A stretch of 64,000 nucleotides of DNA from Deltaproteobacteria bacterium (lineage in GTDB: Bacteria > Desulfobacterota > Binatia > Binatales > Binataceae): the NCBI GenBank assembly GCA_021817345.1, contig JAKAVC010000138.1:1-64000 (forward strand). Reading direction: 5' to 3'. The notes beneath the pieces are model-generated. The model was not told the DNA's origin and searched no databases. It saw only the letters and a list, made by a program, of their open reading frames with translations. This document shows positions 50,568 to 63,413 of this stretch, one piece after another (position 1 is the stretch's first letter; each line of letters starts with the position of its first letter). The position numbers and the translations under genes were made by a program.

Positions 50568-53147
50568 CTACCAACCGGTTATGTGAATGTTCGGCGTGAG
50601 CCAGCGTTTATGTGCGATGTTGCCCTTGATGTTATTGATATATTTTACTGCCGCGGGATCGTACCATCCCCCCGAGTAGTGCATCCCGATACACCCCCAG
50701 AGGAGCGTGTCGAGGTTGGCCTGGCTGGGATTGTTTGCGTAGGCTGCCGCGTCTTCGGCGTAAGTGTTATGGCCGGGTTGGGCGGGACGCCTCGCAAAAT
50801 ACGGCGCCCAATCGCCATTGATACATGATCGCGTGTCGGCAAAGCGGTATTCCGCGGCGAATGACGTTGAGTCCTTGATCATCGGCCACGTCTTCCACTC
50901 ATAGTACACTTTTGTCTGCCACGCCGACCACGAGGTATAGCAACAGTACGGGCATGATGCTTTGCGCCCGTCGGCGAGCGGGATAGTGGTATTCCAGAGC
51001 GCGGCGAACCCGTCCTGGACGCATTGCGGTCGCGTGGTTCGCTTGTCACCGGTCGTCCATTGGCGCCAGAAGCTTTCCTCCCAGGCCTGGCCACGAACCA
51101 CGTTTTCGTCGATTCCGTACTTGCACGCCGCCCATCGCATGATCATGTCGGTGGAACCCGTGTAGTCGCCCTTGATTCGCGCGTATTGCGCGTAGCTCGC
51201 CAGTGTCTCGAACGTGTACCCTTCCGCTCTGAAAGCGGCGAGATCGGAGGGGGTGGCGACGGTTCGATTAAAGGGGATGTTGCCTGGAATGGTCTCGGGG
51301 GTGGAAGGAATCTCCGCCGCGCATTGCCGTCCGCTTGGCAGCGCCGCGTGCGGCGGCAGAGTCGGAAAATACCCGTCCTCGCGCAACGCCGAGGTCAACA
51401 CCCGCGCCCCCGCGCCAGGCTCCGACGCGGACGCCGGCCGCGCGAACGCCACCGTCAGAATCACCGGCAGGACAAGGGTGGCCGCACCCGCGAACATCCG
51501 GCGCGGATCACGCGCGGAGAGAGAGCCTGTGGCGGCGTCCGGAATCGCTTGAAGCGTCATGACGCGTTGCCGCTCCGCGATCATCCAAAGGAGATAGAAC
51601 ATGATTCCATCCATGCGGTGAACGTCTCCTATGCCGGCCTCCGCGAACGCGCGGCAGAACGAAGGCAGTATCAGGAAGAAAAACAGGGGCTTCAGGTTCC
51701 AGGGATCCCCTGGGCGTCTGAGGAGCGCAATCCAGGGTCGCAGCATGATGCAAAGCCAGAAAACAAGCGCGGGAACTCCGAGTCCCACCGCGATCGATAA
51801 ATAACCTTCATGAGTCGAGGTGTCCGGCCCCTGCGACCAGAAGCTGTCCCAGCTTGGAAAACGCGGGTCCTTGAAAATCGCGCCTTCGACATCGTACCCG
51901 TAGCCGGTAAAAGGCCGTTCCAGTATTTTCCGCAGTTCGAACTTCCAAGCGAGCGTTCGCCCCGTAAGCGTGGTGACATCGCGGCTCACCCCCAGCTTTG
52001 CCGTGGCTCCCAACGCGCCGTAAACCAGCGCGCCGGCGAGAGCGACCGCCGCGCACACGAGCATCCCGCGTGCCCGATACCTCCAGAGCAAATACGCGCC
52101 AGCTCCAATAGCCAGCGCGACCGCAGGTGAGCGCGAGTCGGCCATCAGGTCGAAGACGGCCCCCGCCAGAATACTGAAGGCCAGTACCACACGTTGCCGG
52201 CGCGTCGCGCGTCCCCAGATGCTCAACGCGACGCCAATACTCAGGAACGCCAGGCTGCCGACCACGTTGGGGCTGTAGAAGACTCCCTCGAACCGGTCGA
52301 TGCCCGAGGTATCGCGAATCCACGTGTACATGCCGGTCGCGTCGTGGACCGCACGCCATGCGCCCGTCCAAGTGCCCCCTTCAACAAATACCCTTCGCGG
52401 CAATGCGACCGCGGCAAATGCCGTCAGGCAGAGAAGGACCCCGCATCCGGCGAGAAAGCCCCACAAAACCGCATCCACGTCCGTCGCGCAAGCGGTCGAA
52501 AGCGAGACCGCCGCGAGTGCCGCGAACAGAAGCACTGTGGGGACGAGACGGCCGGCCGAGATCAATGGGTCGAGGGAATAGATGACCGAGACCGCCGCCC
52601 ATCCAAAGTACACGAGGAATACGGCGAGGTAGCGCTCCCTGACTACTCCTCTATGGTACGCGGCCGCAATGGCCGGCAGGCAGAATGCGAGAAGCAGTGG
52701 ATAATGCAGCCACCATCGCTTCTCAGGGTCAAGCGGAATCAGATTGACATAAGGCAGGGCCTCCACCAGCACCAGGGCGGGCACCAGCCGGAGCGGATTA
52801 CGCGTGGTCCATCCAACCGTCCAAAGCAGTAACGCCCCGCCGACTAATCCGGCGATCGCAAATGCCAGATAGAGCGAATGGATGTTCAGAACCAGGACCG
52901 CCAGCATTCCGAGCGCGGCCGCGGAGGCGACGACGGCGAGGCGCGGCGGAACGCGCGCGGGCCGCACCTCGAGGTCATCGAAGAGGCGATGACGCTCGGA
53001 GGCCGGCCCCGGCGAGTCGAAGATCTTCGCTTCCCCACGCGGGCGCGGGGCGCCGGAAAACGCCTCCGTGCTATCCATCGGAATTTCCGGACGCGAGGCC
53101 ATTTCTTCGCGGAGCCCGCTCGCCCAGTTCCGCCGCGCGCAGTTCAT
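50568..53147 (-). CDS. O-antigen ligase/polymerase-like membrane protein fused to a secreted lytic-transglycosylase-like domain
   Basis: N-terminal about 550 aa polytopic with O-antigen-ligase-type features (EGVFYSPNVVGSLAFLSIGVALS, DSRSPAVALAIGAGAYLLW, ERPFTGYGYDVEG, THEGYLSIAVGLGVPALVFW); C-terminal portion from M at 51497 has signal-like MFAGAATLVLPVILTVAFARPASAS then SLT-like WAACKYGIDENVVRGQAWEESFWRQ and cysteine-containing C-terminus. Confidence 0.75.
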   Translation of the reverse strand: MNCARRNWASGLREEMASRPEIPMDSTEAFSGAPRPRGEAKIFDSPGPASERHRLFDDLEVRPARVPPRLAVVASAAALGMLAVLVLNIHSLYLAFAIAGLVGGALLLWTVGWTTRNPLRLVPALVLVEALPYVNLIPLDPEKRWWLHYPLLLAFCLPAIAAAYHRGVVRERYLAVFLVYFGWAAVSVIYSLDPLISAGRLVPTVLLFAALAAVSLSTACATDVDAVLWGFLAGCGVLLCLTAFAAVALPRRVFVEGGTWTGAWRAVHDATGMYTWIRDTSGIDRFEGVFYSPNVVGSLAFLSIGVALSIWGRATRRQRVVLAFSILAGAVFDLMADSRSPAVALAIGAGAYLLWRYRARGMLVCAAVALAGALVYGALGATAKLGVSRDVTTLTGRTLAWKFELRKILERPFTGYGYDVEGAIFKDPRFPSWDSFWSQGPDTSTHEGYLSIAVGLGVPALVFWLCIMLRPWIALLRRPGDPWNLKPLFFFLILPSFCRAFAEAGIGDVHRMDGIMFYLLWMIAERQRVMTLQAIPDAATGSLSARDPRRMFAGAATLVLPVILTVAFARPASASEPGAGARVLTSALREDGYFPTLPPHAALPSGRQCAAEIPSTPETIPGNIPFNRTVATPSDLAAFRAEGYTFETLASYAQYARIKGDYTGSTDMIMRWAACKYGIDENVVRGQAWEESFWRQWTTGDKRTTRPQCVQDGFAALWNTTIPLADGRKASCPYCCYTSWSAWQTKVYYEWKTWPMIKDSTSFAAEYRFADTRSCINGDWAPYFARRPAQPGHNTYAEDAAAYANNPSQANLDTLLWGCIGMHYSGGWYDPAAVKYINNIKGNIAHKRWLTPNIHITGW

Positions 53148-53862
53148 TCGAGTACAGGATTGCGCGCAGGAGCGGCGACTCGGCGAGATTCAGCAAAAGG
53201 TTTATATTCGGGATTACGCAGTGGCCGCCGATAAACCCGGGGAAGTAACGAACGCGCGGCAGGAAGTCGATTTCGTCGAAGAAGCTCGTGATCTCGAAAT
53301 AGTCTCCATCGACGCGTTCCGCGTAACGATTCAGCTCCTGGGCAAAGGCGATCAATGTGCCGAAGTAGGTTGTCTCGGCGAGCTTGGCGAGCTCAAGGGT
53401 CTCGGGCCGGCTGACGCGGGCGGTTTTCATCCCAGCCGCCTGGAAGTGCTTTTCCGCGTAGGCGGCGGTATCGATGTCCGTCGCGGCCACGAACTTTACA
53501 TAGTGCAGAAGGTCCCGCGCCATGCGCACGTGCTTGCCGCGCACCGGGCTATAGGCGACCGCCACTCCCGTGCGGTCCGCGACAGAGCGCGTCGTCCCGG
53601 GCGGCACCGTACTGTTGATCACGGTCAGGCGCGGCGCGAAACGCCTGATGTACTCGCACGCGGTATCGACGAAGTCGGCCCCGCGAAACGGAAAACATAT
53701 GTGCATGACCTCGACGGGCTGCTCGAATTCGCGCGGTTCTATATCGTGTCGCAGGACCGTCCCGCGCTTTTCGAGCACGTCCGCGAGCGCGCCGCCCACT
53801 TCGCCCATCCCGACGACCAAGGTTGCTCCGTTAACATCCGTCTTTTTCACTGTGCGGTTCAT
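53071..53862 (-). CDS. Short UDP-glucose/GDP-mannose dehydrogenase-like protein lacking the C-terminal domain
   Basis: LVVGMGEVGGALADVL NAD motif; INSTVPPGTTRSVA; LAKLAETTYFGTLIAFAQELNRYAE; FPGFIGGHCVIPN with candidate catalytic Cys; only 263 aa. Confidence 0.7.
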   Translation of the reverse strand: MNRTVKKTDVNGATLVVGMGEVGGALADVLEKRGTVLRHDIEPREFEQPVEVMHICFPFRGADFVDTACEYIRRFAPRLTVINSTVPPGTTRSVADRTGVAVAYSPVRGKHVRMARDLLHYVKFVAATDIDTAAYAEKHFQAAGMKTARVSRPETLELAKLAETTYFGTLIAFAQELNRYAERVDGDYFEITSFFDEIDFLPRVRYFPGFIGGHCVIPNINLLLNLAESPLLRAILYSNELRAAELGERAPRRNGLASGNSDG

Positions 53863-55070
53863 GTTGCTCCTTTCCTCTGCGCCAGAGCGCCGGGGCTTGT
53901 GTTGGCCTCGGAGTCTCCGAGAAGTGAATCGACAATCCGGCAGTACTCAGTCGATTGGGTCTGCCAGCCGATTGACTGGACCACGCGCCGCGCATGCATT
54001 GCGAGGCGCAGTCTGCGCTCGGGGTCGCGGTGGAGTTCCTCGATTCCGGCCGCAAGGTCCGCGCTGTTGCCCGGCTCGAAGAAGCGCACCGCGTTGCCGT
54101 TGAAATAATGCTCGATAGTGCGCAGGCGCGCGGTTATCGTCGGGATTCCCATCGCGGCGTAATCGAGCAGCTTGACCGGAAGCATCAGGTGCGTGGCGCT
54201 GGTGGCGCGATTCGGCACCAGGCCGACGTCAACGCCGGCGAGCGTGGTCGGCAAGCGTTCGACCGCAACCGGGGGCAGGAAGGTGACGCACTCGCCGAGG
54301 CAAAGCCGCGCCGCGAGACGGCGAGCCTCTTCGAGATAGTCGCCCGTTCCAATTACCAGGAATCTGAGACCGGGAACCCGCCGGCGCGCGAGTTCCACCG
54401 CCTCCAGCGCGATATCCAGTCCAAGCCGATGAGTCAGCGTTCCGTGACACGCAACCGTGAATTCGCGCGCCGATTGACGAATGCCTTTCGATGGACGAAA
54501 GACATCGGGGTCGGGCGCATTCATGACGACCGCGATTTTCCGCGCCGGAATGCCGGCTTTGATCAGGCGCGCGCGATGAAGGTCGTGAACCGCGAGAACG
54601 CGATCCGCGCACGCGGCGCTCGCGCGCTCAACGCCCATCAGAAGGCGCGCGCCGATGGCGCCGCGCCTGCCGCCGAACTTGTCACGATAAAGCTCGGGCA
54701 TCGTATCGTGGATGTCCAGAAGCAGCTTCGCACCGAGGCATCTTAAGGGCAGGGCCGAGAGCACAGCCGCGTCCGGCATCGTGCACACGACCGCGAGATT
54801 GTAGCGCCTGCGCAGGCCCATTCTGAACGCGGTCCAGGCCGCGATTGTGAAGAAGCGCGCGTAGCTTCGCAGGTAGCGGCTTCGGCTCGCCCCCCGGTAA
54901 CGCGGCATCCGGATGCCAACGAGATTGACGCCATGCAGGTTCGCTTCGTGTGCGGAATCGAGGCAGATTACGTCAACCTGGTCGCCCCGGCGGGCGAGCG
55001 CCTCGGCGTGACGCTTGACGCGGCCGTCGTGAATATAGGTGGTGTAGGCGATGACAAGAATTCTCGCCAT
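53859..55070 (-). CDS. Glycosyltransferase family 4 (GT-B)
   Basis: MARILVIAYTTYIHDGRVKRHAEALARRGDQVDVICL; FTVACHGTLTHRLGLDIALEAV; LPVKLLDYAAMGIPTITARLRTIEHYF. Confidence 0.88.
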   Translation of the reverse strand: MARILVIAYTTYIHDGRVKRHAEALARRGDQVDVICLDSAHEANLHGVNLVGIRMPRYRGASRSRYLRSYARFFTIAAWTAFRMGLRRRYNLAVVCTMPDAAVLSALPLRCLGAKLLLDIHDTMPELYRDKFGGRRGAIGARLLMGVERASAACADRVLAVHDLHRARLIKAGIPARKIAVVMNAPDPDVFRPSKGIRQSAREFTVACHGTLTHRLGLDIALEAVELARRRVPGLRFLVIGTGDYLEEARRLAARLCLGECVTFLPPVAVERLPTTLAGVDVGLVPNRATSATHLMLPVKLLDYAAMGIPTITARLRTIEHYFNGNAVRFFEPGNSADLAAGIEELHRDPERRLRLAMHARRVVQSIGWQTQSTEYCRIVDSLLGDSEANTSPGALAQRKGAT

Positions 55071-55081
55071 GTTTCTCCTAG

Positions 55082-56311
55082 TTATCTGGCAAGCGGGTGC
55101 TCGCTCAGCCGACGCACGGTTGCGCGCCGGGAACCGGGCCGCCTGATGACGGGCTGCCCGCCGTTTTCGATTGACAGTTGAAGCTCCGAGCGCTCGCGCC
55201 ACCATTCGGCAACCTCCGACGGCAGCGCGCGCCACGCCGACGGCAGCTCCGCGAGCATCCGGAGCAGGTCTTCGTAGGCCCCAAGAAGCCGCCCGTCGCC
55301 CATGTAGTCGGGATGCGTAAGCGTCAGAATCATCCCGCCGACCGAGGCTGTCCAATTCGCCTTCATCACCCAGACCGGGAGCGGACTGCGATGCAGCAGA
55401 CGGATCAACGTATGGTCCTGGGCGAGCGTGTACGGCAGCTCGACCATCCGCGACAGCATGAACGGAAACAGGCTGCAGGTGCCGCCTGGCCACGGTTCGT
55501 AGGGATCGGTGTCCGAGAAGCTCGAATCGAAATCGAAGGCCATCGTCGCGATCCACGACGCGTCGCGCGGCGTGGACGGCGCTCGAAATCCGCGCAGGCC
55601 GTGAGCCGCGGCCATCCGCTCGACGATCGGCGCAAGGCTCGCGAAGTCCCGCGCGCTTCGAAACAGCCGTCCATCGTGGCTGAGGCCGTGTGCGCCGAAT
55701 TCAAATCCGCGCGCGCGAAGCCGCGTCACCAGATTCCAGTCGATTCGGTACTGCGTCAGGGGAAGGTTCCACGCCGAACGGAAGCCGTATCGTTCCTCGA
55801 GATCGGCAATTCGTTCGATACGCGCGAAACCCGAGGAACTTTCCACGTCATGGGTCAGCACCACGCAGCATTGGTGGCCGTCGGGCCAGAAGCCGATATG
55901 CCAGCCGTCGTCGCGCCCAAGCATCCCAAGGCTCAAGCGCAGCCATTCGCTCCAGAATTCCAGGAGCGCGCTTTCGCACGGCCAGTGCGGAAATTCGGGC
56001 TTGACGCGTGCGCGTATCGTCGCCTCGTTCAGACGACGGCGCACGGGGAACGGAATCAGCCGCTTTAATTTGTGGCACGCCCGCGTCTGGCGCGACTGAC
56101 GATAGCCCTGGCGCGAGAGATATGATTCGAAAAGGAAACGCTCGGCGATGAACTCCGACGACAGGATCATCGGCTCCAGCGCGTCGCGCCATTGCTCGGG
56201 GAGCTTCCAGAACGAGAAGGCGTCGTTGCGCGCGCGCGTTGCAAGTGCGCGGCAATCCGCTGAAACCGCGCCGATTCCGGCGCTTATCGCCGAGCCGGCA
56301 CTCATCTCCAT
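55082..56311 (-). CDS. Polysaccharide deacetylase-like (NodB) protein
   Basis: CCVVLTHDVESSSGFARIERIADLEERYGFRSAWNLP; FEFGAHGLSHDGRLFRS; LRGFRAPSTPRDASW. Confidence 0.8.
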   Translation of the reverse strand: MEMSAGSAISAGIGAVSADCRALATRARNDAFSFWKLPEQWRDALEPMILSSEFIAERFLFESYLSRQGYRQSRQTRACHKLKRLIPFPVRRRLNEATIRARVKPEFPHWPCESALLEFWSEWLRLSLGMLGRDDGWHIGFWPDGHQCCVVLTHDVESSSGFARIERIADLEERYGFRSAWNLPLTQYRIDWNLVTRLRARGFEFGAHGLSHDGRLFRSARDFASLAPIVERMAAAHGLRGFRAPSTPRDASWIATMAFDFDSSFSDTDPYEPWPGGTCSLFPFMLSRMVELPYTLAQDHTLIRLLHRSPLPVWVMKANWTASVGGMILTLTHPDYMGDGRLLGAYEDLLRMLAELPSAWRALPSEVAEWWRERSELQLSIENGGQPVIRRPGSRRATVRRLSEHPLAR

Positions 56312-57159
56312 AGCGACTCGCGCCCCGTAAGCCGGCGCATTTGATGGCGGCGCACGAAAGCGACCATTTCCGGGGTGGCGGGACGCGGCTTGCGCCGCAG
56401 ATAGCCCTCGATATATCCGGCAAGCAGAGCCCCGGCGGTGATTCCCGGCGGCCATCCGAAGAAAAGCTTCACCGCGCGCGCCGCGACGAATACCGGCGAA
56501 TAGCCAACATTGTAGGCCGCTTCGCCGGCGGCCCTGCGGCTTTTCCACAGTCCGCCGGCCGCGCCCTGCGGGCGATGATGGTACGCGCGGATATGGCGAA
56601 AATTCCGCGTCTCGAATCCGTGCATCATCGCGCCCACTTCGTCGAGCGTGTCCCATCCGAGTTCCGGACGGATTGCGCCGATCGCCTCGAAGCACGCGCG
56701 CGAATACATCTTGACCGCGCCGCGCGTGTGAAAGGACGGAGCAACCACTTCGCGCCATCCGTCCGCGCGCGGTTCCAGGAGCGTGGCGCTCGCGATTCCG
56801 AGCTTCGGATTGCGCTGGAATTCGGCGAGAAGAAGTTCGGCGAACCGCGCGTCGAAGCTCAGATCGGCGTCGAGCCTCAGGATGGCGTCGCAGTCCAGCC
56901 ACTTCCCGCGGCGAAGAAATCGCGCGACGACCGACTCGCCGCCGGCGGCGCGCGGCTCGTCCGACGCAAGATGGTGCGGTTCGATCCATGGCGCGCCATG
57001 CGCCGCGGCTTCGATGATTTCAGCGGTGCGATCGGCCGAACCGTCGTTGATTACAATCCATCGTTTCGGTTTGACGGTCTGCGCCGTCATCGACGCAATC
57101 AGCCGCGGGAGCATCCGCTCCTCATCGCGGGCGGGGGTTATGGCGATGTAATCGTTCAT
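56302..57159 (-). CDS. Glycosyltransferase family 2
   Basis: DYIAITPARDEERMLPRLIASMTAQTVKPKRWIVINDGSADRTAEIIE; CDAILRLDADLSF. Confidence 0.92.
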   Translation of the reverse strand: MNDYIAITPARDEERMLPRLIASMTAQTVKPKRWIVINDGSADRTAEIIEAAAHGAPWIEPHHLASDEPRAAGGESVVARFLRRGKWLDCDAILRLDADLSFDARFAELLLAEFQRNPKLGIASATLLEPRADGWREVVAPSFHTRGAVKMYSRACFEAIGAIRPELGWDTLDEVGAMMHGFETRNFRHIRAYHHRPQGAAGGLWKSRRAAGEAAYNVGYSPVFVAARAVKLFFGWPPGITAGALLAGYIEGYLRRKPRPATPEMVAFVRRHQMRRLTGRESLWR

Positions 57160-57617
57160 GCGAGAAACCGCTGGAGAGACACTCCCACGAGTCGCGTGAG
57201 CGGAGCGTGAAGATTACGCCAAAGCCGCGGCGCGGGCGGATGCGCGCCCGAAGCATTGAGCGGGAGTTCACGCGCCTCATCGTCAAGCGAGAGCGGCGGG
57301 CAGAAATCCGAGAAGGACAGCGAGACCATCCGGGGACGCGGCGGATGCGCGCTTCGCGTGAATACGCATCCCGCGGTACCCCGGCCATCCGCCGACAGCA
57401 TGGCGACGGACAGTTCCAGGCGGTGTGCGCGTTCGAGCGCCCCGAGCCAGGGCTCACGATGATAGAGCGTTGCGCCGTCCGTCGCCTGGAACGGAGCACG
57501 CCATCGCGGGAGCGCCTCGCTCAGAGGCTCGACTGCGAGTTCGCCGGCGGTGTGCCGTTTGTACGGGCGCGCCTCGGCGCGCCGTGCCTCGGAAACCGCG
57601 TTATTCGTCATCGCCAT
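57156..57617 (-). pseudogene. FemAB-like protein with internal deletion of acyltransferase core (or truncated gene)
   Basis: N-terminus TLYHREPWLGALERAHRLELSVAMLSADGRGTAGCVFTRSAHPPRPRMVSLSFSDFCPPL joins directly to C-terminal-like LPLNASGAHPPAPRLWRNLHAPLTRLVGVSLQRFLA; 153 aa rather than about 350 aa. Confidence 0.5.
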
Positions 57618-59141
57618 TCAACCATCCTGGCGAGCCGCGGCGGCAACGATTGGCCGCGGTTCGCGTCCGAGCGCCGCCGAGAGCATCGCCCCAAGGTTCG
57701 AGCGCTCGACCCGAAAGTAAACGAGGATCGCCGCAACCGAGGCCACGGCGAGCGCGGCGGGCGCGTCAAGCCCGGCTGCGAGAGCGAACAAACGTGCCGC
57801 GAAGGCCGCGATTGCGCACAGGGCCGCGACTTTGAGCCCGGGCAGCGCCGCTTCAAGAAGTTCGCGCGCGTCCAGTCCGGCCGCGGCGCAAGCGAGCCAA
57901 AGCCCGGTTACGCTGATCAGCGTTTCGACGGCGCTCATCCCGGCGCTTACGCCTGAAAGTCCTTCGGCGCTTAACGAAAAGACCGCCGCAACGATAAGCG
58001 CGAGCCTGCCGGTGTGAAGATAGATGTCGTAGGACGGATGGTTGGTCGCGTAATAGACGGAACCGATTCCAACCTCCAGTCCGGCGAACATCAGCCCCGC
58101 CGCCAGCAGTCGCATCGGCAGGGCCGCCGCAATCCACTTGGCGCCGTACACCGTGGCGAGCAGTTCGGGCGCGACGATCGCGGCGCATACCGCGAAGGCT
58201 GGAACGATTCGAGCCAGGTAGCCGAAGAAGTCGCGGTAAGCCGTTGCCAGCCGGTGGTCCTCGCCGCGCAGCCGACAGAACGCGGGAAAAGTCACGCGCC
58301 CGGCCACGCGATGCAGCCGGTCAGGCACGAAGCGGAGCAGGTCCCATGCGATCGAGTAGAACCCCAGCGCGGAACTGCCGAGCATCCGCCCGACCAGCAC
58401 GTAGTCGGCGTTCGAGGAGATGGCCGTCAGGAGCCTCGCTCCGCAAACAGTGCCCGCAAAGCGCGCGAAATCGCCCGCCGCGCGCACGCTCGGCGCGCCG
58501 CGCGGCAGGCGCGCGTCCGCGGCCCACAACGTGGCCGCTCGGAGCGAAAGGCGTGCCGCCAACCCCGCGGGGAGGCTCCACAGCGGCATCCCGAGCGCGA
58601 GGCTCCAGAAGGCCGCCGCGATGAACCCGACCTCGCCAAGCACGTCGGCAACGGCCAGGGCGCCGAAGCGAAGCTCGCGGCGAAGGCGCGCGTCGGATAT
58701 AACCGCGGTTGCGGCGAGGAGAATCGGAAGGCACAACAGACGCGCGCCCTCGGTGAGCCGCGGCATCGCCATCAGACGCGCAATTACCGGCGCGCCGGCG
58801 TAGAGAACGCCCGCGACGAGCGCGCCAAGCCCGGTGGTCAGCCAGAAGGCGGTCGATTCGTGCTCGGGACGCAGCTCGTCGCGTTGGATTAGTGCGTCCG
58901 GTATTCCGGCCTCGGTGAAGAGCGTCGCGAACGCGCATACTATCAGCAGGATGCGAAACAGGCCGAAGTCCCCGGGCGTGAGCGCGCGCGCGAGCGCGAC
59001 CGTCGCGCCGAGCCGGAGCGCCTGGACCGCGGTCTCGCCGGCGATATTGTCGCGCACGCTTGTGGCGAAGCCGCGCCAGAACGCGCGATCGTGCGGCGTC
59101 AGTGCTTCGCCCGGACTGCCTTGCGTCTGCGCGGCCATCAC
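57618..59141 (-). CDS. Polysaccharide flippase (MOP/Wzx family)
   Basis: ATVALARALTPGDFGLFRILLIVCAFATLFTEAGIPDALIQRDELRPEHESTAFWLTTGLGALVAGVLYAGAPVIARLM. Confidence 0.9.
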   Translation of the reverse strand: MMAAQTQGSPGEALTPHDRAFWRGFATSVRDNIAGETAVQALRLGATVALARALTPGDFGLFRILLIVCAFATLFTEAGIPDALIQRDELRPEHESTAFWLTTGLGALVAGVLYAGAPVIARLMAMPRLTEGARLLCLPILLAATAVISDARLRRELRFGALAVADVLGEVGFIAAAFWSLALGMPLWSLPAGLAARLSLRAATLWAADARLPRGAPSVRAAGDFARFAGTVCGARLLTAISSNADYVLVGRMLGSSALGFYSIAWDLLRFVPDRLHRVAGRVTFPAFCRLRGEDHRLATAYRDFFGYLARIVPAFAVCAAIVAPELLATVYGAKWIAAALPMRLLAAGLMFAGLEVGIGSVYYATNHPSYDIYLHTGRLALIVAAVFSLSAEGLSGVSAGMSAVETLISVTGLWLACAAAGLDARELLEAALPGLKVAALCAIAAFAARLFALAAGLDAPAALAVASVAAILVYFRVERSNLGAMLSAALGREPRPIVAAAARQDG

Positions 59142-60565
59142 ACGCCCTCACCGCGCAGGAGCACCGGCAGCGTGCGCATCAGGATTCTCAGGTCCGCGCC
59201 GAGCGACCAGTTGTTGAGATACTGCACGTCGAGCCGGACCATCTCGTCGAACGACAGGCGGTTGCGCCCGCTCACCTGCCAGAGCCCGGTGATTCCCGGT
59301 ATCGCGTCGAGGCGGCGGCGATGCCACGGCTGGTAAAGCTCGATCTCGTAGGGAAGCGCGGGGCGCGGACCTATCAGGCTCATCTCGCCGCGAATCACGT
59401 TGAGTAATTGAGGAAGCTCGTCGATACTGAAGCGGCGCAGAATTCTGCCGACCGGCGTGATTCGATTATCGTTGCCGAGCTTGAAGAGCGGGCTCTCCGC
59501 TTGCGACGCCGCGGCACCGTTACGGATCCATCGGCGAACGTAGTCGCGATGCGCCGCGTCGTCCGCCGAGGCGCGCATCGTGCGCAACTTCAGCATCGCA
59601 AACGGGCGCCCGCGCGCGCCGATCCGGATCTGGCGAAACAGGATCGGCCGCCCGTCGAAAATCCGTATCGCGAGCGCGCCCAAAAGCAGCACCGGCGCGC
59701 TCAAGGCGAGCAGGACGCTGGCGGCGAGAAGATCGAAGGCGCGCTTTATGGCGAAGTTGAGTCCGCCGATATTCGAACCGCGCACGCTTATCAGCGGGAT
59801 GACTCCGAGCATGTCGAAGCGCAGCCCGTTCGGCGCATGGTTCGAGACCCACGGGACCAGCCACCATCGGACGTCATGCCGCTCGCACAGCGCGACGACT
59901 TCCTGCTCTCGTTCGCGCGGCGAGTCGGGCATGGCGACGGCGGCTTCCAAGCCCGGGAACAGGCGTGCGATCTCGCCAAGCTTCTCGACAGGTCCGAGCA
60001 CCGGGTAGCCGCGGTACTGGCATCCCGGAGGGCCGTCGTCCAGGAAGCCGACGATCTCGTAAGGCGTCAACTGATCGAGAATACTGTCGCAGAGATATCG
60101 TCCGACCCGGTTGAATCCGATCAACAGGAGCGGAACCGCGTTTTCCGGGCTGGCGTAAAACCTCCGGATGCTCCATCGGGCGACGGCGCGTACCGCGACC
60201 ACGGCCGGCGTCGCCAGCGCGTAAGCAACCACCATGGTCAGGCGCGACACGTCGAGATGCGCGAGGAAGCCCGCAAGAACCGTCAGCAGCGCGGCGATGG
60301 TCGAGCCGCGCACGATCGCTTCGAATTCCTTCAGCCCGCCGTTGCGCATCCGGTAAAGCTCGCAGGCGCGGAAGACGGCAAGCCACATCGCGGCCAGCAG
60401 GAGCGCGCTCAGGATGAGGAGGTCCGGGCTGGTCCTGAGCAGCCGCACTTCCATCGCGCCTCCCGGATCGTGCAGCATCAGCGCCGCACTAAAGGCGATG
60501 AACAACGCCGCGACATCGGCGGCGGCAAACACCGCCTTCTGCTTCTGAAGCTCGCCGGCGAACAT
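59138..60565 (-). CDS. Exopolysaccharide polyprenyl-glycosylphosphotransferase (initiating sugar transferase)
   Basis: N-terminal TMs plus CoA-binding-like domain; KRAFDLLAASVLLALSAPVLLLGALAIRIFDGRPILFRQIRIGARGRPFAMLKLRTM; GRILRRFSIDELPQLLNVIRGEMSLIGPRPALPYE. Confidence 0.95.
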   Translation of the reverse strand: MFAGELQKQKAVFAAADVAALFIAFSAALMLHDPGGAMEVRLLRTSPDLLILSALLLAAMWLAVFRACELYRMRNGGLKEFEAIVRGSTIAALLTVLAGFLAHLDVSRLTMVVAYALATPAVVAVRAVARWSIRRFYASPENAVPLLLIGFNRVGRYLCDSILDQLTPYEIVGFLDDGPPGCQYRGYPVLGPVEKLGEIARLFPGLEAAVAMPDSPREREQEVVALCERHDVRWWLVPWVSNHAPNGLRFDMLGVIPLISVRGSNIGGLNFAIKRAFDLLAASVLLALSAPVLLLGALAIRIFDGRPILFRQIRIGARGRPFAMLKLRTMRASADDAAHRDYVRRWIRNGAAASQAESPLFKLGNDNRITPVGRILRRFSIDELPQLLNVIRGEMSLIGPRPALPYEIELYQPWHRRRLDAIPGITGLWQVSGRNRLSFDEMVRLDVQYLNNWSLGADLRILMRTLPVLLRGEGV

Positions 60566-60572
60566 TTGCGAT

Positions 60573-61784
60573 CTACCTTCTCCTGGGGGGGAGGGGAGAC
60601 GAGGTCGCCATTTGCCTAAGTCCGCCGGCGAGCAACTCTCTGTATCCTCCAAGCGCATCGCGCACCACCTGGGCGACGCGCCCGACTTCCGTGTCAGTAA
60701 GATGGGGATGCATCGGGAGCGACAGGACCGTGTCCGCCATCGTCTCCGAGACCGGAAAGTCGCCGGGCGAATGGCGAAGCTCCCGGCACGCGGGCTGGAG
60801 ATGGAGCGGAACCGGATAATGAATGCCGCACTGAATTTCGTTGCGGACGAGCGCCTCGCGGAGCAGATCCCGGGCGGGCGTGCGAACAACGAACAAGTGG
60901 TTGGCGGAAACCATGCCCTCGGGCTCGGCCGACAGGCTCAGGCATGTCGAGCCGAGCAGCTTTCGATAAAGCCGCGCGACCTTGCGCCGGCGCTCGTTCC
61001 ACTCGCCGAGCCGCCTGAGCTTCGCACGCAGGACCGCGGCCTGTATCGCGTCGAGCCGCGCGTTGTAACCGAACTCCCGATGCGCGTAATGGGAGATACG
61101 GCCGTGGTCGCGCAGCAGTCTTACCCGCTCGGCCAATTGGTCGTCGTTGGTGACCACCGCGCCCGCTTCCCCCCACGCGCCCAGGTTCTTGCCCGGGTAA
61201 AAGCTGAAGCATCCGGCAAGCCCCTGCGTACCGGCCATCACGGTCTCGCCGCTCGGGCCGCGCCAGCTCGCGCCATGCGCCTGGCATGCGTCCTCGATCA
61301 CCTTGAGCCCGAACTCCCGCGCAATCGCCCCGATCTCGTTCATCGCCGCGGGAAGCCCGTACAGATGAACCGGAACAATCGCGCGCGGGAGCCGCGCGGT
61401 TCCGTTGGCGCGGCGCTCGAGATAGCGCCGCAATCCGCGCGGGCTCAGGTTTCCGGTCTCCGGATCGACGTCAACGAACACCGGCCGCGCGCCGCTCTGC
61501 TGGATCGCTGCGGCGGTCGCGATAAAGGTCATCGGGGTGGTGATGACCTGATCGCCGGGACCGAGGCCCGCGGCCATCAGCGCAAGCCTGAGCGCGTCGG
61601 TGCCGCTTCCCACCCCAATCGCATGCCGGACGCCGAGGAAATCGGCGAATTCGCGCTCGAAAGCCTCTACCGCTGCGCCGCCAACGTAGGCGCACTGGCT
61701 ATGGATCTGAGCGAGTTCCCGCTCGATATCGTCCCTGACTTCGGCGTTTTGAGCCGCCAGATCGACAAATTTAATCGGCCGCAT
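60573..61784 (-). CDS. DegT/DnrJ/EryC1/StrS aminotransferase (WbpE/WlbC-like)
   Basis: IKFVDLAAQNAEVRDDIERELAQIHSQCAYVGGAAVEAFEREFADFLGVRHAIGVGSGTDALRLALMAAGLGPGDQVITTPMTFIATAAAI; CFSFYPGKNLGAWGEAGAVVTND. Confidence 0.93.
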   Translation of the reverse strand: MRPIKFVDLAAQNAEVRDDIERELAQIHSQCAYVGGAAVEAFEREFADFLGVRHAIGVGSGTDALRLALMAAGLGPGDQVITTPMTFIATAAAIQQSGARPVFVDVDPETGNLSPRGLRRYLERRANGTARLPRAIVPVHLYGLPAAMNEIGAIAREFGLKVIEDACQAHGASWRGPSGETVMAGTQGLAGCFSFYPGKNLGAWGEAGAVVTNDDQLAERVRLLRDHGRISHYAHREFGYNARLDAIQAAVLRAKLRRLGEWNERRRKVARLYRKLLGSTCLSLSAEPEGMVSANHLFVVRTPARDLLREALVRNEIQCGIHYPVPLHLQPACRELRHSPGDFPVSETMADTVLSLPMHPHLTDTEVGRVAQVVRDALGGYRELLAGGLRQMATSSPLPPRRR

Positions 61785-62319
61785 CCAAACCTCCACGTGG
61801 TGAAAACCCGGAACCCGGGTCGGCATGTTCGATTAGGCGCCTAAGGCGTGCGGGATGGCCGGCGACGAGCGCGCGAGGCGCCACGTCGCGCGTGACGAGC
61901 GCGCCCGCGCCGACTATCGCGTCCGCACCGATCGTCACTCCGCACATGATGATTGCGCCGCTTCCTATCGAGGCGCGCCGGCCCACGATGGTTCTTTCCA
62001 TCCGCCAGTCGCCGTCGCCTTTTGCGGAGCCGTCGGGATTGGTCGCGCGCGGATATCGGTCGTTGATGAACACAACGCCGTGTCCGATGAAAACTTCGTC
62101 CTCGACGATCACGCCCTCGCAGATGAAGCTGTGGCTCGAGATTTTGCATCGTTGCCCGATTGAGGCGCCGCGCTGGATCTCGACGAAGGCTCCGATGCGC
62201 GTTTGGGCGCCGACCTCGCAGCCGTAAAGATTGACGAATGGGGCGAGCCGGACGTGCGGGCCTAGCCGCACGTCGTCCGCCACGCACGCGTACTTCGGGA
62301 TTTCGACTTCGTTCCTCAT
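61771..62319 (-). CDS. Left-handed beta-helix sugar N-acetyltransferase (WbpD/WlbB-like)
   Basis: KISSHSFICEGVIVEDEVFIGHGVVFINDRYPRATNPDGSAKGDGDWRMERTIVGRRASIGSGAIIMCGVTIGADAIVGAGALVTRDV. Confidence 0.9.
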   Translation of the reverse strand: MRNEVEIPKYACVADDVRLGPHVRLAPFVNLYGCEVGAQTRIGAFVEIQRGASIGQRCKISSHSFICEGVIVEDEVFIGHGVVFINDRYPRATNPDGSAKGDGDWRMERTIVGRRASIGSGAIIMCGVTIGADAIVGAGALVTRDVAPRALVAGHPARLRRLIEHADPGSGFSPRGGLDAAD

Positions 62320-63413
62320 CGCAAGGACACCCGGGGAACTTCGACCTGCGTCAGCCGCCCGCCTTCGCGCAGAGACGCACTGGCCGCGTGAAGCACGCTC
62401 ACCACGCGCAGGCCGGAAAGGCCGTCGGTGCGGGGAATCGCGCCGGTCTTGATGCAATCGACAAAATGTTCGCACTCCAGGCGCAGCGGCTCGGTCTCCT
62501 CGATACGCGGGATCTGGATATCGCCGTATCGGTACGAGTACTGGAAATCGCCGAAGGTGTCGTAATAGCGCTGGACGTCAACGCGCTTGTCGTAAATGCG
62601 GATTTTTTCCTGCGGCGCGGTGTCGTCGTACACCAGCATCTTGCGCGAGCCAACCACGGTGGTTCGCCGGATCTTGTTGGGATCGAGCCAGCTCACGTGA
62701 ATGAACGCGATCACGCCGCGGGGAAAATGCAGCGTGAGCAGCGCGACATCCTCGATTCCGCGCCGGTAATGGCTCTCGCCGTGACAACTGACCCGCTCGG
62801 GCATCTGCCCGAGCGCCATCAGGATGATCGAAATATCGTGAACCGCGAGATCCCAGGCGACGTTTACGTCGTGCTGAAGAAGGCCGAGGTTGGCGCGCGT
62901 CGAACTGGCGTAAAAGATCTCGCCGAGCTCGCCGGATGCGATAATGTCGCGCAGTTTCAAAACGGGCGCGCTGTACTCGAACGTGTGGCCGACCATCAGG
63001 ACGCGCTCACGCTCGCGGGCGAGCGCCACCAGTTCGGCGGCCTCCGCGGGAGAGGTGGCGAGCGGCTTTTCGACCAGTACCGACTTGTCCGCCTCAAGCG
63101 CGCGGCGCGCCATTTCGTAATGAGTCCCGACCGGGGTCGCGATAATCACGCCCTCGACCTCAGGATCAGCGAGGACCCGGTCGAAGTGCGAGGTAACCCC
63201 AGTGTTCGGGTAAAGATGCGCGATACGGTCGCGGCGCTCGGCGTCGAGGTCGCACGCAACGACTCGCTCTGCGCATCCGATCTGGTGAAGATTCCTCACC
63301 CAGTTCGGGCCCCAGTATCCGAGACCCACGACCGCGATTGCGCCAAGCCGCGCGCGCTCGGCCGTGCGTCCGTTCGCGGCAGGGTTGTTAAACGTCTCAG
63401 CAATTATTTCCAT
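62316..63413 (-). CDS. Gfo/Idh/MocA oxidoreductase (WbpB/WlbA-like)
   Basis: IAVVGLGYWGPNWVRNLHQIG; VEGVIIATPVGTHYEMARRALEADKSVLVEKPLATSPAEA; NVAWDLAVHDISIILMALGQMP. Confidence 0.92.
   Translation of the reverse strand: MEIIAETFNNPAANGRTAERARLGAIAVVGLGYWGPNWVRNLHQIGCAERVVACDLDAERRDRIAHLYPNTGVTSHFDRVLADPEVEGVIIATPVGTHYEMARRALEADKSVLVEKPLATSPAEAAELVALARERERVLMVGHTFEYSAPVLKLRDIIASGELGEIFYASSTRANLGLLQHDVNVAWDLAVHDISIILMALGQMPERVSCHGESHYRRGIEDVALLTLHFPRGVIAFIHVSWLDPNKIRRTTVVGSRKMLVYDDTAPQEKIRIYDKRVDVQRYYDTFGDFQYSYRYGDIQIPRIEETEPLRLECEHFVDCIKTGAIPRTDGLSGLRVVSVLHAASASLREGGRLTQVEVPRVSLR

Follow-up and report, generated by a model that had tools for sequence, protein, structure and literature searches.

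A Wzy-type exopolysaccharide polymerase gene fused in frame to a probable lysozyme-like, SLT-related domain

How Wzy-dependent pathways control the length of exopolysaccharide (EPS) chains, and why EPS operons should encode hydrolases, are matters still debated. Pseudomonas aeruginosa carries the gene of one glycan hydrolase, PslG, within a cluster for EPS synthesis; the enzyme works at the inner membrane during production of Psl, and its association with that membrane matters for synthesis (PMC6813494, PMC9075953). WceF of Pantoea stewartii, a glycosidase from a Wzy-type EPS cluster with a β-helix fold, is secreted as a free enzyme by way of a Tat signal, and its loss lengthens stewartan (PMC7949094). 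Here, we describe a gene from a 64,000-nucleotide stretch of DNA (hereafter the window) of a bacterium of the GTDB family Binataceae, in which a polymerase of the Wzy_C family and a domain resembling the SLT lytic transglycosylases share one reading frame. PslG differs from this arrangement: it belongs to another glycoside hydrolase family and is a protein in its own right, kept in place through contacts with PslE, whereas the window domain is covalently attached to the polymerase. The window domain is likewise unlike the β-helix of WceF in being SLT-like and fused, although a β-helix does occur as the fusion partner of a related polymerase in another genome (G012).

The two halves of the protein can be compared with large families. 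Members of the Wzy_C family (PF04932; O-antigen polymerases and ligases) usually terminate either behind the membrane part or with TPR repeats; the window protein, whose N-terminal half scores above the family cut-off, instead continues into an enzyme-like domain predicted to be exported. With the SLT/GH23 lytic transglycosylases (PF01464; MltE, MltC, MltF, Slt), enzymes whose classical substrate is peptidoglycan, this domain shares an aligned catalytic ES and an S-x-G-x-x-Q-like region, and its leading, though non-significant, fold matches point the same way, but it falls below the Pfam cut-off, carries extra conserved cysteines and lineage-specific insertions, and aligns with SLT over a short stretch only. 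No report of a Wzy protein fused to a hydrolase or a lytic transglycosylase was found in the literature searched, which covered few subscription papers. The parts are of known kinds; what appears, to us, to be new is that they are covalently joined, that this has recurred and that the cargo can be exchanged.

The fused gene and its exopolysaccharide cluster

The fused gene lies on the minus strand (50568..53147), where a single uninterrupted frame runs from 53147 to 50568, 859 codons from its first ATG without a stop, as a sequence-only reading of the window had proposed; the plus strand of the same interval is interrupted by stops. The first ATG overlaps the upstream UDP-sugar dehydrogenase-like gene (53071..53862, minus strand; PF00984) by 77 bases. 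An ATG at 53078 (MDSTEAF, residue 24), which leaves 836 codons, is a better fit to the homologue in the sister species G001 and is the likelier true start. The N-terminal half matches Wzy_C at residues 334-465 (51753..52148, minus strand; PF04932, E 2.1e-16), with 60.5 bits against the curated Pfam cut-off of 31.7, and hydropathy places about 12 hydrophobic segments ahead of the linker, making this half polytopic. Together with the family profile described below, these results bear out the proposal that a polymerase- or ligase-type protein continues in frame, through a signal- or TM-like segment, into an SLT-like domain.

From upstream to downstream, the cluster encodes an OPX exporter, a Wzc-like chain-length protein, an AAA ATPase with TM and LysM, an oxidoreductase, an acetyltransferase, an aminotransferase, an initiating transferase, Wzx, glycosyltransferases, the UDP-sugar dehydrogenase and the fusion. 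Profile matches in the window, all on the minus strand, comprise the amino-sugar genes (Gfo/Idh/MocA oxidoreductase, hexapeptide acetyltransferase and DegT aminotransferase; 60573..63413), the initiating EPS glycosylphosphotransferase (59138..60889; PF02397, with TIGR03025 over its cut-off), a Wzx-type flippase (57618..59141; PF13440, E 4e-56), a family 2 glycosyltransferase (56302..57159; PF00535) and a group 1 (GT4-type) glycosyltransferase (53859..54929; PF13692/PF00534). Wzx, the initiating transferase, the Wzc-like co-polymerase and OPX are hence all encoded with the fusion, as is characteristic of Wzx/Wzy clusters, and the cluster is syntenic across the family, its order being largely kept in relatives. 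Given this gene content and conserved order, the simplest reading of the N-terminal half is as the Wzy of the EPS pathway, with a predicted polymerase activity. The sequence-only reading had left the choice between an O-antigen ligase and a Wzy-type protein; the Wzy_C assignment stood, and the context favours the Wzy polymerase of an EPS cluster over the ligase. On the evidence of sequence, the gene is a genuine fusion within a Wzx/Wzy-type EPS cluster.

The set of aminotransferase, acetyltransferase and oxidoreductase, the last with UDP-GlcNAc 3-dehydrogenase as its best NCBIfam match (below cut-off), hints at acetamido sugars in the polymer. SLT-class enzymes use the acetamido group of their substrate; if this holds for the class, a polymer with acetamido sugars would suit an SLT-type enzyme.

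Three other features of the region deserve mention. At 57156-57617 (minus strand) the cluster contains a 153-aa ORF that matches no family and could represent a gene that has been truncated or frameshifted. Far from it, at 2095-2245 on the plus strand, lies a full-length match to the glmS riboswitch/ribozyme (RF00234, 81 bits), a class best known from Firmicutes. The AAA ATPase of the cluster (G000:C97 64195-65748, where G000 is the genome of the window; L041:4196-5749, minus strand) has a TM segment followed by a C-terminal LysM, and homologues occur in related clusters. Its layout is that of the ExeA/GspA ATPase, which binds peptidoglycan and helps to assemble the type II secretion system (PMC4098917), but its association is with an EPS exporter and with XrtA-type ATPases, not with a secretin.

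The linker segment and the C-terminal domain

Residue 551 (51497) is the first of the hydrophobic segment MFAGAATLVLPVILTVAFARPASAS, as the sequence-only reading had it, and RR stands directly ahead. Residues 551-575 (51423..51497, minus strand) resemble an embedded signal peptide or TM segment by hydropathy, the RR before the hydrophobic run predicting an N-in orientation and an AxA-type site (ASA/S) following residue 574. Equivalent AxA sites were found in 8/8 fusion proteins examined, and all eight combine positive residues, a hydrophobic run and an AxA site, so that processing by signal peptidase is predicted from their sequences. The C-terminus of Wzy_C proteins is cytoplasmic; as the positive residues ahead of the extra segment predict an N-in/C-out topology, the C-terminal domain would be periplasmic. 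Release by signal peptidase I is plausible in view of the AxA-type sites in every fusion, and tethering is equally possible; for the fused protein we infer both topology and cleavage.

Two other ways of exporting or producing the domain were considered. In dual Sec-Tat polytopic proteins, too, the last hydrophobic segment exports a C-terminal globular domain, and the RR ahead of the segment in the window protein recalls them, but those proteins carry cofactor domains (PMC5449189). Among the SLT fusions, RR adjoins the segment only in G000 and G001 (genus g1) and is not kept in G004, G018 and G028 (genus g4), so use of Tat is unsupported in general and an internal Tat signal or dual Sec-Tat membership was rejected. 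A separate, internally initiated C-terminal protein is likewise unsupported as to starts with Shine-Dalgarno-like sites, since Met551 of the window protein is Ile in G001 and a start codon with a Shine-Dalgarno-like match 5' to it occurs at 0/8 fusion junctions.

The domain itself spans residues 593-859 (50571..51371, minus strand). Searched alone, the C-terminal part of the window protein retrieved nothing of value from Pfam, NCBIfam or the PDB and no SLT match at all, hence no score reaching the curated PF01464 cut-off, and a PDB profile search using the domain-family alignment gave nothing. An identity as an Erm methyltransferase was discarded, the NCBIfam and PDB matches concerned lying far below cut-off and being due to chance. 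An alignment of 34 family members keeps the motifs G-[ST]-T-D, C-K-[WY]-G-[IF]-D, E-S-x-W-x-Q and S-x-[GS]-x-x-Q-x-K, together with R-A-C-x-x-G, G-C and G-x-W. When this family was compared by hhalign with 21 true SLT domains of these genomes, the two aligned at E 6.5e-4 over 29 columns with a probability of only 28%, and E691 was paired with the Glu that is catalytic in the ES motif of SLT. PF01464 itself matches 7/34 members (best 4e-4) and further members below threshold; one relative, in G003:C10, lies barely above the curated cut-off (21.4 vs 21.3 bits). AlphaFold models reached a pTM of 0.75 for the window domain, in which a helix terminates at E691, and 0.82 for a 39%-identical relative. 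The leading Foldseek matches of both models in the PDB are mostly of the lysozyme superfamily (Tse3, MltF, MltC, MltE, chitinase C, Cel124), at E-values that are not significant (0.3-1.7; best 0.3 and 0.66 for the two models). A fold unrelated to lysozyme or SLT, an outcome that the sequence-only reading had allowed for, is thus not what the profile comparison and the leading, non-significant fold matches suggest. The C-terminal part of the window protein, formally outside PF01464, is likely a lysozyme-like, SLT-related domain, as judged from profiles and models.

The proposal of an SLT-like motif with a pair of candidate glutamates held in part. Glu691 (codon 51075..51077, minus strand), the second Glu of WEESFW, aligns with the catalytic ES of SLT, is Glu in 33/34 members and is the candidate catalytic acid; the first Glu is not conserved in the family. 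We infer catalytic activity for the domain. The sole exception at position 691 is the fused copy of G018 (L059:9473-10216, minus strand), in which Gln stands where the catalytic Glu would be (ALVQSNWHQ) and which is a natural candidate for an inactive version; cutting may therefore not be essential everywhere. Three relatives lack both Cys609 and Cys675, a joint loss that fits a disulfide between them and an exported location in an oxidising compartment.

Distribution, origins and other partners of the polymerase

Matches to the C-terminal part were found in 16/57 related genomes, all of one GTDB family (18/57 with the family profile), and the domain occurs in 2/297 genomes of a phylum-wide sample, both of that same family; the GenBank phage and plasmid collections gave no match to it. 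Within the genomes sampled, the domain is therefore concentrated in one GTDB family, and relatives in IMG/VR show that it occurs elsewhere. These distant relatives are secreted proteins with similar motifs, some of them near phage replication, capsid-protease or endolysin genes. Signal-peptide-bearing relatives near phage genes on virus-classified contigs (L146:2935-4068, L147:2431-3300, L112:2806-3936, L113:2503-4503) are possible secreted lysins or depolymerases.

A search of related genomes, as the sequence-only reading had suggested, recovered the same fusion in the sister species G001 (a 933-codon frame) and in G004, G018 and G028, three species that belong to a different genus (g4; 758-784-codon frames). 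A class-wide search with Wzy_C returned many long frames, frame length by itself not revealing fusion partners. Identity between G000 and G001 is 66% in the polymerase, 82-86% in the C-terminal part and 48.6% in the linker, and dN/dS (NG86; rough, as dS exceeds 1) is about 0.16, 0.06 and 0.33, respectively. The low values of polymerase and C-terminal domain indicate that each is under purifying selection.

Relatives show separate forms and INTERMEDIATES of the polymerase and domain genes. Other genera encode the domain separately, as a secreted protein that has a signal peptide of its own and consists of the domain alone or carries it behind bacterial Ig-like repeats (Big_7, PF17957), and the polymerase half is also present by itself. 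The separate domain genes often adjoin the same polymerase or head the same EPS cluster: a domain gene lies within 10 kb of 9/19 unfused polymerases, an excess with a binomial P of about 4e-11 under a rough model that assumes a 2% chance per locus. The domain gene directly follows the polymerase in G020 and is preceded by a decayed one in G017; in G025 a single TAG closes the polymerase frame, and the domain frame beyond it is in phase with that of the polymerase. Immediately upstream of its OPX gene, at a position where the copy is intact in some relatives, the window genome retains a decayed version of an SLT-like domain gene (G000:C97, about 68,405-68,670, minus strand). In trees of the polymerase half and of the domain, the fusions of one genus branch apart from those of the other; the genus-g4 fusions fall, in the domain tree, among separate genes, several of which are polymerase-adjacent (G020, G025, G003). 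Well-supported branches in both trees force at least two changes, with a single origin in 0% of bootstrap trees. As far as these phylogenies go, the fusion has at least two origins.

Examination of the sequence beyond the polymerase end in other genomes revealed further cargo. A member of this polymerase family in G012 continues in fusion into a right-handed β-helix domain (PF13229, 1.9e-13; L106:2196-5027, minus strand), and members in G018 (L108:9195-11216, plus strand) and G028 (L109:3232-5325, minus strand) into an unrecognised Cys-rich exported domain. Each is joined by a hydrophobic, signal-like segment ending in AxA (LYA/A, AHA/Y, ASA/F). The signal-like stretch with which the polymerases of G002 and G031 terminate, just ahead of a stop, may be the remnant of a fusion.

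Proposed function and alternative readings

In the reading that we prefer, to which we give about an even chance, an SLT-like glycan-cutting domain built into, or freed from, a Wzy-type EPS polymerase cuts nascent EPS. The N-terminal half would be the polymerase of the cluster, with its C-terminus in the cytoplasm; the segment that follows would act as a signal peptide and export the last third of the protein to the periplasm, where the lysozyme-superfamily domain would remain tethered by the segment or be released by signal peptidase I at the AxA-type site. Its most likely job would be to cut the growing chain where it is polymerised, so as to set its length or free it for export, much as membrane-bound PslG or secreted WceF do as separate proteins. 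The sequence-only reading had put forward attachment or release of chains at the cell wall as a putative outcome of the coupling. That EPS rather than peptidoglycan would be the substrate is favoured by the β-helix that takes the same place on the polymerase and by the precedents of PslG and WceF.

Several observations count against cutting of EPS, namely the classical substrate of SLT enzymes, the phage-linked relatives, the LysM ATPase, the Gln of G018 and the weak Foldseek matches, and of these the SLT motif, the phage-linked relatives and the LysM-bearing ATPase favour peptidoglycan instead. A possible but less probable alternative is thus a lytic transglycosylase acting on peptidoglycan, which would make local openings in the wall for assembly of the EPS exporter (OPX/Wzc) or for passage of the chain, the fusion to Wzy serving to position it at the machine. 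The ES...S...G...Q motif aligns with genuine SLT proteins of these very genomes, the signal-peptide-bearing relatives lie near phage replication, capsid-protease and endolysin genes, the cluster ATPase carries its peptidoglycan-binding LysM after a TM segment in the manner of ExeA/GspA, and domain genes often stand directly ahead of the OPX gene. Yet the same position on the polymerase can hold a β-helix, a fold typical of enzymes that cut polysaccharide and not wall; the genomes already carry several ordinary SLT proteins, usually 4-6; and the domain family shows many lineage-specific insertions and many pseudogenes, which is not the pattern of housekeeping wall enzymes.

The fusion could also be a neutral by-product of the loss of a stop codon between neighbours, with signal peptidase cutting the polyprotein and the halves working as they do when separate. 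The one-TAG arrangement of G025, the AxA-type sites in every fusion, the signal-like remnants of G002 and G031 and the linker, as the least conserved part (dN/dS 0.33, 48.6% identity), are all what such a history would leave. We nevertheless regard it as unlikely, because fusions, those with other cargo domains included, have at least four independent origins, and fusion is retained across species of two genera, which suggests some benefit of coupling. An error of sequencing or assembly, or a frame-shifted pseudogene joining two genes, is highly improbable. Both the window and the sister genome are fragmented assemblies, and domain genes decay often in this family, but the fusion is found independently in five genomes (that of the window, G001, G004, G018 and G028), which rules out an assembly artefact, and both halves are under strong purifying selection. 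Homologues are separate genes in some genera and fused in five species, and not consistently two genes as the sequence-only reading had considered possible.

A wider and more tentative extension of the EPS-cutting reading is that the C-terminus of the EPS polymerase serves, in this bacterial family, as a reusable export dock, onto which SLT-like, β-helix and Cys-rich glycan-acting domains have repeatedly been grafted by way of an embedded signal peptide. Signal peptidase would then free one cutting or modifying enzyme per polymerase, and synthesis and trimming would be stoichiometrically coupled. A polymerase and a domain resembling a glycan cutter have been joined at least twice, and relatives preserve the unfused and one-stop-codon states; with natural fused and split forms at hand, the coupling can be tested by comparison. 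The finding also assigns a probable function to a family of secreted domains that Pfam does not recognise.
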